Part shown: positions 6,889 through 31,558 of the stretch, piece after piece
Layout: the number at the start of each line of letters is the position of its first letter
Numbering within the stretch: position 1 is the stretch's first letter
Assembly (NCBI GenBank): GCA_029055345.1
Contig: JAIDDJ010000060.1
Span: 1 to 38,920 of the forward strand
Reading direction: 5' to 3'
From: Muribaculaceae bacterium
GTDB taxonomy: Bacteria > Bacteroidota > Bacteroidia > Bacteroidales > Muribaculaceae
Length of the DNA: 38,920 nt
Notes under the pieces: model-generated
What the model was told of the DNA's origin: nothing
The model's database searches: none
The model's input: the letters and a program-made list of their open reading frames with translations, nothing else
Program-made: the position numbers and the translations under genes

Positions 6889-6895
6889 AAAGAAA

Positions 6896-7260
6896 ACAGT
6901 GATGCTATAAGCCGGGTTATGTACTCCAGACGGGCCGGAGTGTCTGTCATTTATCTATGCGGCCGTTTGCACGGCTCGCTAAAGCAGTCTACCCCCCGAC
7001 AATGGACGGGCAATCCTTTGCTGCCGGTGTATTTGACCTTGCAACTCGCAGGTTGTGCGGCCCGGCATGTCACCATGCCGGCCGGTGGGCTCTTACCCCG
7101 CCTTTTCACCCTTACCTTCCGAATGGAACGGAAGGCGGTAATTTTCTGTCACATTAACCCCGACGTCGCCGCCGGCTTTCCGTTAGAAAATGCGATGCCC
7201 TGCGTTGCCCGGACTTTCCTCTTTATGCCTCTTGCATAAAGCGACAGACCGCATCACTGT
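6896..7260 (-). ncRNA. rnpB: RNase P RNA (class A)
   Basis: The catalytic RNA that removes tRNA 5' leaders. On the minus strand the diagnostic segments are GAGGAAAGTCCGGGC near the 5' end (7220-7206), GGTAAGGGTGAAAAGGC and GGTAAGAGCCCACCGG in the middle, AGATAAATGAC, and ACATAACCCGGCTTAT near the 3' end. The ends pair in a perfect 10-bp P1 helix (7251-7260 with 6896-6905), which sets the boundaries at about 365 nt. A hairpin terminator follows. The 5' end overlaps the last 7 nt of the upstream kinase-like coding sequence, so the RNA is either cut from a common transcript or has a promoter inside that gene. Confidence 0.96.
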
Positions 7261-18252: not shown

Positions 18253-18283
18253 TGCTGCCGGCAGCGGCATGTGGTTAGTTTTT
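18253..18283 (+). terminator. Possible terminator after yigZ
   Basis: A perfect palindrome GCTGCCGGCAGC (18254-18265) can refold as TGCCG/CGGCA with a 4-nt loop. It is followed at some distance by TTAGTTTTT, 10 nt after the yigZ stop. Confidence 0.45.
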
Positions 18284-18379
18284 CGCGATTTTAGGGCGAT
18301 AAATTGTGAAAATTCAAAAAAAATTACGATATTTGCAGAGAAATTGCGGGGAAATTACCGGATGGCTTCGAGTGTTGAA

Positions 18380-18506: not shown

Positions 18507-18596
18507 ATGCCAAGCGGAAAAAAGAGAAAAGGCCACAAGATGGCAACTCACAAGCGCAAAAAAAGACTGAGAAAGAATCGTCATAAGAAGAAATAA
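18507..18596 (+). CDS. 29-residue basic protein, AURKAIP1/COX24-like (probable ribosomal)
   Basis: A very short gene whose product begins MPSGKKRKGHKMATHKRKKR and continues LRKNRHKKK. Over half of the residues are Lys, Arg or His. The K-M-x-x-H-K-R-K-K-R-L-R-K-x-R core resembles the AURKAIP1/COX24 domain of mitochondrial mS38 and the tiny actinobacterial ribosomal protein bS22. I infer a small-subunit ribosomal protein, from composition and motif rather than a search. The start is unambiguous (A-rich leader TAAATT before ATG). It lies 89 nt upstream of RNase G and may be co-transcribed with it. Confidence 0.75.
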   Translation: MPSGKKRKGHKMATHKRKKRLRKNRHKKK

Positions 18597-22901: not shown

Positions 22902-22938
22902 TTATTACGTTCTTAGACCTGATTGAATAAAATCCGGT

Positions 22939-23029
22939 AATTCCGGAGTTGCAGATTAGCCTCGGCTATCGTTTAGTGGATTCGGAAACATAGCGGATTA
23001 TGTGACAGAATTGAAAAGCGATAGAGGAG
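22939..23029 (+). repeat. Dispersed 91-bp palindromic element, copy A
   Basis: Aligns without gaps to the minus strand of 30793-30703, with about 69 of 91 bases identical by hand count. It contains nested inverted repeats: CTATCG/CGATAG (outer), GATTC/GAATT, CATA/TATG (inner). One pair is G-U here and G-C in copy B, so the fold is kept. A frame stop in the shared reading frame argues against present coding. It lies between cydB and the transporter operon and is followed after 30 nt by a GC-rich hairpin. Confidence 0.75.
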
Positions 23030-23059
23030 GGTGTTTCTGTGCGAACGAGGTATTACACT

Positions 23060-23097
23060 TTCAACAGGAGCCTCGCTTGAGCGCGGCTCCTGTTGAA
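23060..23097 (-). terminator. 13-bp hairpin after cydB
   Basis: Perfect 13-bp stem (23060-23072 with 23085-23097) with a 12-nt loop, 19 nt beyond the cydB stop on the minus strand. There is only a weak T-rich tail. It may end the cydAB transcript, and it is also the hairpin part of composite element A. Confidence 0.7.
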
Positions 23098-30641: not shown

Positions 30642-30674
30642 AAGTCCCGCCTGGCGCATAGCTCGGCGGGACTT
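30642..30674. terminator. 10-bp hairpin between tkt and the RluA gene
   Basis: Perfect 10-bp stem (30642-30651 with 30665-30674), loop of 13 nt, between convergent genes. No T run on either side. It may end tkt transcripts from the left and the RluA transcript from the right, and it is the hairpin part of composite element B. Confidence 0.6.
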
Positions 30675-30702
30675 GTCGTTGATGATGGTCTCTCAGCTGC
30701 AT

Positions 30703-30793
30703 CTCGTCTATCGCTTTTTGATTCAGTCACATAGTCCGTTATGCTCCTGAATCTGCAAAGCGATATCCGAGGCACATCTACGATCCTGGCATT
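30703..30793 (-). repeat. Dispersed 91-bp palindromic element, copy B
   Basis: The second copy of the element at 22939-23029, on the opposite strand. Its nested arms are TATCGCTTTTTGATTCAG (30709-30726) against 30747-30765, with CATA/TATG inside. It begins within the TAA stop codon of the RluA gene and ends 28 nt before a GC-rich hairpin. A reading frame across it runs on to 30626 without a stop, but I do not consider it a gene. Confidence 0.75.
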
Positions 30794-31478
30794 AAGAAAT
30801 TTTAGTGGATGGAGCCTTCTGGAGAAGAGGCAGGAAATCGGGCAGGGGAGAGGCATCAAGACTGATTTTCTGCTTGTTGACCGGATGCACGAATTCAAGA
30901 TGTCGTGCTTGAAGGGATATGCCCCCGTCTTTATTACTTCTTCGGGCTCCATATTTCAGGTCTCCCTTAATAGGATGGCCTATTCCTGCCAGCATGGCCC
31001 GAATCTGATGCTTCCTCCCGGTAAGTAGCGTGACTTCAAGCAGAGTGTATCTGTCTCCCTCAGCCACCGTTCGATATTTCAGGCGTGACAACTTAGCTTC
31101 AGGATTTTTTGAATCGCTCAAGAACGTCTTGTTTATGCGGCCGTCCGATACAAGCCAATTCTCAAGAGAATCCTCGGGCTTTTGCGGCTTTCCTTCCACT
31201 AAAGCCCAGTAGGTCTTATGGATCTCGCCCTCCCGGAGCATCCTGTTGAGCCTCTCAAGCGCTTTCGAAGTGCGCGCAAACATCACAAGTCCGGATACCG
31301 GCCGGTCTATCCTATGGACAACGCCGCAGAAAACATTACCCGGTTTATTATATTTCTCTTTGAGATATGACTTCAGCATCTCGGAGAGGGGAATATCACC
31401 GGTCTTGTCTCCCTGGACTATTTCTCCGGCTTTCTTATTTACCACGATAATGTGGTTGTCCTCATATACGATTTCCAT
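30792..31478 (-). CDS. RluA-family 23S/tRNA pseudouridine synthase
   Basis: A 228-residue pseudouridine synthase of the RluA family. The active-site motif is HRIDRPVSGLVMFAR (catalytic Asp in HRxD). It starts directly with the catalytic domain (MEIVYEDNHIIVVNKKAGEIVQGD) and lacks an S4 domain, as in short RluA/TruC-like enzymes. LLTGRKHQIRAMLAGIGHPIKGDLKYG is the second family block. Target RNA site unknown. I chose ATG 31478; the frame extends to 31529, but that extension is the terminator hairpin of the protease gene. The start lies only 5-12 nt after that terminator, so a promoter must overlap it or the gene depends on read-through. Confidence 0.9.
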   Translation of the reverse strand: MEIVYEDNHIIVVNKKAGEIVQGDKTGDIPLSEMLKSYLKEKYNKPGNVFCGVVHRIDRPVSGLVMFARTSKALERLNRMLREGEIHKTYWALVEGKPQKPEDSLENWLVSDGRINKTFLSDSKNPEAKLSRLKYRTVAEGDRYTLLEVTLLTGRKHQIRAMLAGIGHPIKGDLKYGARRSNKDGGISLQARHLEFVHPVNKQKISLDASPLPDFLPLLQKAPSTKIS

Positions 31479-31483
31479 ACTAT

Positions 31484-31527
31484 TTAAAAAGGGGCTGAGC
31501 CAAAAATTTTCGTTTTGACACAGCCCC
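31484..31527 (-). terminator. Rho-independent terminator of the C10 protease gene
   Basis: GGGGCTG (plus 31491-31497) pairs with CAGCCCC (31521-31527). Inner pairing of CAAAA with TTTTG extends the stem to about 14 pairs with one mismatch. On the minus strand it is followed by TTTTTAAAT. It lies 31 nt beyond the protease stop and ends 5-12 nt before the RluA start codon. Confidence 0.8.
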
Positions 31528-31558
31528 ATGTCTGGATTAGATATTTTCAGTATTTATT

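Follow-up and report, generated by a model that had tools for sequence, protein, structure and literature searches.

A strand-selected hairpin inside the ends of IS5-related MITEs in Muribaculaceae

What keeps two diverged stretches of one contig folding in the same way? The question arises at two sites in the window, by which we mean the whole 38,920-nucleotide stretch of Muribaculaceae bacterium DNA analysed here (contig JAIDDJ010000060.1, positions 1 to 38,920, forward strand). Positions 22939–23029 (copy A) align without gaps to the reverse complement of 30703–30793 (copy B), with 69 of 91 bases identical (75.8%), and the repeat is real, the runner-up 91-mer within the window scoring 45 on the plus strand and 40 on the minus strand. 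The nested pairings described in an earlier note on this DNA were present in both, with RNA folds of −25.1 kcal/mol for copy A and −36.2 kcal/mol for copy B. That note had read the pair as a two-copy composite element, a 91-bp core plus a spaced GC-rich hairpin, apparently under selection for structure, for which a 3′-UTR role or a place in a REP-like family seemed plausible.

The window copies as decayed MITE ends

Both sites are, almost certainly, decayed left ends from a Bacteroidales superfamily of MITEs that has kinship with IS5-type (DUF4096 plus DDE) insertion sequences. The true element begins outside the 91-bp core, at 22916 in copy A and at 30816 in copy B. Copy A occupies 22916–23054 on the plus strand; BLAST matched it over 22913–23054 to a full MITE (L010) at 78% identity, the trinucleotide TTA at 22913–22915 precedes its terminal repeat, and its right end has been lost. 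Its hairpin folds on the inward strand (22960–23030, plus), with the core at 22985–23006, 69 nt from the element end. Copy B lies on the minus strand at 30689–30816 and matched the same MITE over 30811–30689 at 89% identity; its terminal repeat runs down from 30816, its right end is likewise lost, and its hairpin (30703–30771, minus; from the inverted repeat and the fold) has its core at 30726–30747, again 69 nt from the end. A covariance model of the hairpin (R1) matched copy B at 30684–30789 with an E value of 1e-7 and copy A at 22943–23048 with an E value of only 0.22, which marks copy A as an old relic. A further weak match to this model, at 18267–18356 (E 0.74), was rejected after inspection of the sequence.

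Copy B overlaps a gene for an RluA-type pseudouridine synthase (30792–31529, minus strand; PF00849; reading frame confirmed). At 30792–30818 the terminal repeat of the copy encodes the final seven full codons and the stop of this gene, and matches to the protein in 33 other genomes extend no further than query residue 239 of 244.

The idea that there are just two copies did not survive a search of the same genome, which is itself incomplete (2.03 Mb in 78 contigs, 83% complete). With copy B as query, BLAST returned 46 matches, at up to 95% identity outside the window; four of these rows arise from the palindrome aligning with its own opposite strand, and two cover 22-bp ends only. The covariance model found 59 hairpins, often two per element. 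In 13 of the 46 matches a contig end lies no more than 17 bases away, so the genome count is a floor; the assembly breaks at these repeats. That the repeat belongs to a family is supported, and both the covariance-model search and a search of the host family gave further copies.

Two chief terminal repeats occur in the host genome, GGCTCCATCCACTAAAATTTC and GACCTCATTCAATAAAATCTG. Among 21 element spans located by their ends, 13 measure 331–333 bp, two measure 159 bp and the remainder 243–933 bp. The 3-bp flanks match on both sides in 13 of the 21, almost all being TTA or TAA, so that about half would be expected to agree by chance and the agreement is no more than suggestive of a target-site duplication. 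One element of the host genome (L002) has the same ends enclosing broken transposase pieces that match PF13340 (DUF4096; E 4e-12) and PF01609 (DDE_Tnp_1; E 4e-9), the IS4/5-type domains that place it in the IS5 family. In a relative, an element of about 1.1 kb (L062) is bounded by 34-bp terminal repeats and contains a transposase frame of 242 residues, the last of which look frame-shifted, together with a hairpin inside both ends. The short elements thus have terminal inverted repeats, are present in many copies and have ends in common with autonomous-type elements in the same genome (L002) and in a relative (L062), as MITEs do; the window copies retain the left end only. The link to IS5-type elements explains their mobility.

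The same features give no support to a REP-like family. REP/REPIN elements are high-copy intergenic hairpins, tagged short palindromes associated with Y1 (RAYT) transposases, and the present elements are likewise high-copy intergenic hairpins, but they are longer than REP/REPIN elements, are bounded by terminal inverted repeats and count among their relatives an IS5-type element that has a transposase frame.

In two groups of terminal repeats from other genera, a transposase was sought and none was found. The transposases of L062, L067 and L068, compared with our collected loci (L001–L192), had no match among L074–L192. One terminal-repeat pattern occurred at 104, 27 and 145 sites in three genomes, with no clear autonomous element among the matches listed. 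The genome of Prevotellamassilia timonensis (G717, the source of L127) contains one terminal repeat at 48 forward and 56 reverse sites (up to two mismatches), many of them paired about 185 bp apart: a cultured species thus has a MITE in high copy number.

The GC-rich hairpins that had been counted as part of a composite element are present beside both copies, as described, but are not part of the element. The arms beside copy A (23060–23077 and 23080–23097) are 94% complementary and those beside copy B (30642–30651 and 30665–30674) are 100% complementary. The copy B query covered 170 positions, including the GC-rich hairpin, and its matches elsewhere end at position 122, short of the hairpin; a second copy of the GC-rich stretch beside copy A was sought in the host genome and none was found. 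In a relative (L207), the same gene junction is uninserted and has a hairpin whose flank is that seen at 30642–30674 and whose stem letters differ, from which it follows that the hairpin between the rluA-type gene and tkt (30642–30674) is native. By analogy, the single-copy hairpin adjoining cydB (23060–23097) is probably the native terminator of that gene, outside the element. A spaced GC-rich hairpin as an element part is accordingly ruled out for copy B by the uninserted junction and disfavoured for copy A by its single occurrence in the genome. Another species of the same genus (L209) has a different hairpin-like element, with ends of its own, downstream of the rluA-type gene, perhaps from an independent insertion.

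Conservation of hairpin structure and position

Intact elements have a hairpin of about 106 nt just inside one or both ends, built around the core R-GGAG-tip-YGAC-Y-GA. A search of the host family with a full MITE gave matches in 36 of 198 genomes, frequently limited to the inner 25–40 bases; in the matches that we inspected, stem letters differ and pairing is retained. The covariance model reached further: within the family it hit 121 of 198 genomes, spread over 21 of 30 genera, and it also gave hits in 7 of 198 genomes sampled across the order (two of them from the host family) and in 2 of 296 across the phylum (the host genome included). These multi-genome searches scored 13–19 candidates per genome, and copy numbers from them are floors.

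Searching named genomes with the core pattern gave at least 119 stretches, 91 of which passed the hairpin filters (61 of the 80 listed), the rest having short flanks or failing the tip filter. Of the 80 listed, 66 have titles naming Bacteroidales or a member, the placement of two Candidatus genera among them having been checked; three are titled only ‘uncultured bacterium’ and 11 have titles naming other groups. Among those 11, only one locus from a Verrucomicrobiales MAG (L088) and two from a single Paenibacillus-labelled MAG (L123 and L136) show the outer stem together with a terminal repeat. Cultured species are represented among the core-pattern matches, among them Prevotellamassilia timonensis Marseille-P2831T and Paramuribaculum intestinale DSM 100749. 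In viral contigs, the terminal-repeat patterns found no stretches each, and the hairpin pattern found 10, by pattern match alone.

The resulting collection holds 167 hairpins (154 distinct, 83 non-redundant). Because core letters and the tip stem served as selection criteria, nothing can be drawn from their conservation; no such individual filter applied to the 14 outer pairs. The hairpin score cut-off was 14, below the shuffled median of 16. One probable chance hit (L085) was retained in the counts of isolated mismatches and excluded from the alignment (A2), which comprises 78 rows after four others lying too close to a contig end were also removed.

The earlier suspicion of selection on structure is borne out by this alignment, in which outer-stem covariation stands well above shuffled and slid controls. 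RNAalifold called 14 pairs, in 12 of which both partners vary; the pairs in the tip were themselves selection criteria. Over the 14 outer pairs, 75.7% of cells pair against 50.5% after shuffling, and the covariation score stands at 0.652, compared with 0.224; none of 500 shuffles reached either the pairing or the covariation value. Sliding the partner by one to three columns lowered the covariation score to 0.15–0.28. The pair adjoining the core alternates between A-U (47 rows), G-C (24) and G·U (3), and is flanked by a second G·A mismatch pair (columns 43/72 in 60 of 78 rows and 44/71 in 73 of 78), whose 5′ letters were in no search pattern and whose 3′ letters were part of the core pattern used for the named-genome loci. 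Stem covariation, one mark of a structured RNA, was found. In our judgement, outer-stem letters are too divergent between elements for a common reading frame to be likely. Rfam gave no match above its gathering score, with weak matches far under the cut-offs. Kept in shape while its letters change, the hairpin looks to be a structured component of these transposons that has so far gone undescribed.

Its position is also conserved. Terminal repeats were detected for 134 of the 167 hairpins, and in 109 of these the core lies 69–73 nt from the repeat end, typically about 69 nt. The terminal repeats themselves form groups with little common sequence beyond a T-rich and then A-rich pattern. The spacing is common to these groups, though related copies are not independent.

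The hairpin is not universal among the transposons. The covariance model matched 15 of 30 DUF4096 loci and gave no match in the other 15; some of the stretches are cut by contig ends. One hairpin-free insertion sequence of 904 bp occurs at five sites in two genomes (L066 in G097; L067 and L071–L073 in G092) with 99.6–100% identity. This group shows that not every IS5-type transposase needs the hairpin, which is auxiliary within the broad family.

Strand selection and candidate functions

Mismatches within the stem reveal which strand of the hairpin is under selection. Counted from an alignment that rewarded Watson–Crick pairs only, isolated mismatches comprise 89 G·T against 13 A·C, and 136 G·A against 3 C·T. 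The arms are biased in composition; were the columns independent, 146:100 and 142:71 would be predicted, ratios that the observed ones exceed (P = 9e-10 and 4e-20, values flattered by taking the sequences as independent). Across all stem cells the contrast is milder (103 G·T against 46 A·C). The inward strand is the more stable in 77 of 78 rows, with RNA and with DNA parameters alike, and shuffles attribute to composition 6.1 of the 14.3 kcal/mol by which the strands differ. Selection on a duplex or cruciform would tolerate G·T and A·C equally, so the biased mismatches show that a single strand is selected, namely the strand that enters the element from its end; in two-hairpin elements this holds for each end. 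At columns 49/66, G·U occurs in 59 of 78 rows, G-C in 15, A-U in 4 and A·C in none. Pairs of G with U are more usual in RNA, and these columns lean towards RNA as the folded form.

Taking all of this together, the best overall explanation is that these MITE ends carry a strand-selected hairpin that works as inward-read RNA, to which we give a probability of roughly one half. Judging from sequence, it is about an even bet that the hairpin acts as RNA, within transcripts begun beyond the element and reading into it. Such a transcript, arriving at either end, would fold the hairpin first; what the folded RNA then does is a guess. It might insulate the element end from read-in transcription or translation, and in autonomous insertion sequences it might shield the transposase message in this way; in L062 and L068 the left hairpin precedes the transposase frame. 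Alternatively, a protein might bind to the hairpin RNA. Being part of the mobilised end, the hairpin would be retained by MITEs.

Several results sit awkwardly with the RNA reading. A right-end hairpin, like the hairpin of a single-hairpin MITE, has no transposase message to protect. The near-identical hairpin-free insertion sequences do without the hairpin, as would the DUF4096 loci with no model match. An inward promoter was sought in the terminal repeat and none was consistent; the motif TAnnTTTG recurs at one position in only 7 of 75 sequences and lies inside the stem, so no promoter is claimed. The milder contrast over all stem cells, the share of the strand difference owed to composition and the identical strand preference under DNA parameters also count against it.

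The main rival is that the hairpin acts as single-stranded DNA in the course of replication or transposition: once exposed, the strand whose 5′ end coincides with the element end would fold and be bound by transposase or a host factor. We consider this possible, though clearly less likely than the RNA reading. It would fit the constant spacing between core and element end, whichever terminal repeat is present, the strand-specific selection, the preference of DNA parameters for the same strand in nearly every row and the lack of orientation bias relative to host genes. Against it, the hairpins of two-hairpin elements lie on opposite strands, so that a single exposed strand would offer one good hairpin, and the frequent G·U at columns 49/66 and the hairpin-free insertion sequences weigh on this side too.

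A more conservative alternative treats the hairpin as no more than an extended duplex end, as a cruciform or as two protein sites, preserved through common descent. The elements are indeed related and have a common end architecture, but pairing has been retained despite differing stem letters, and the strong strand bias of the mismatches is not what a symmetrical duplex or cruciform would lead one to expect; we therefore regard it as improbable. We hold out equally little hope for a bolder form of the RNA reading, in which IS5-type transposons of Bacteroidales bear an inward-read structured RNA at each end that is active in transposition, for instance by holding the transposase at the transcribed end. 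Were that so, a DDE transposon would depend on an element-borne RNA.

Orientation relative to host genes speaks to the 3′-UTR role that the earlier note had thought plausible, and gives it no support as the reason for the structure. We used single-hairpin elements alone for this tally, two-hairpin elements being counted twice in it. Among the 58 with a called gene on both sides (simple ORF calls), tandem arrangements run with the hairpin strand in 17 cases and against it in 20 (P = 0.74), 7 elements lie between convergent genes and 14 between divergent ones. This lack of bias argues that the function is the element's own, in expression or movement. That the copies serve the host as 3′-UTR or terminator elements of neighbouring genes is hence the least probable account: both window copies do lie at gene 3′ ends, and according to PMC10969869 messages can be influenced by known MITEs, Correia and ERIC for example, but the tandem counts are balanced, the terminator-like hairpins are separate from the element and copy A is a relic.

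Relation to known elements

The elements resemble the IS5 family (PF13340 and PF01609) and its MITEs in their transposase pieces, terminal repeats and MITE derivatives, and perhaps in a short AT target duplication, and differ in adding a covarying, strand-specific hairpin inside the ends. We did not find such an end hairpin described in the literature that we searched on IS5 elements, nor did we recognise a Bacteroidales end hairpin in the portions consulted of the wider literature, including PMC2864571 and PMC3196728. The Porphyromonas gingivalis MITEs BrickBuilt, MITE239, MITE464 and MITE700 are, in the part of PMC4596501 that we drew on, alike in belonging to Bacteroidales and in having IS5-like terminal repeats and predicted stem-loops. 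In the same account, BrickBuilt, the stems of which arise from 23-nt internal repeats, was found only in P. gingivalis. The terminal repeats of these MITEs differ from those of the present elements. Correia/NEMIS and ERIC elements are also small mobile elements that fold in transcripts, with RNase III processing demonstrated for Correia, as the section used of PMC10969869 describes; they occupy different hosts, whereas the present hairpin covaries at a fixed place inside varied terminal repeats.

Palindromic candidate RNAs of 80–132 bp have been listed in Bacteroidetes, most of them predicted terminators and, in the excerpted text of PMC8040213, without a tie to transposons. Comparing by description, not by sequence, we see a likeness in palindromy and in host phylum, and it is possible that the hairpin was detected earlier among those candidates, without the transposon link.

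Folded MITEs were already known; what is new here is the conservation of structure and not of letters, on one strand and at a fixed distance, inside differing terminal repeats. This suggests that transposon ends could carry a functional single-stranded motif. The hairpin is common in the family and present in cultured species, which makes the idea testable, and in RNA screens of gut bacteria it could pass for a riboswitch or a terminator.

Two further features of the window lie apart from the copies. A class A RNase P RNA is encoded at 6892–7260 on the minus strand, and a short, very basic reading frame at 18507–18596 on the plus strand appears similar to a small protein of ribosomal type that is annotated in Bacteroidota.
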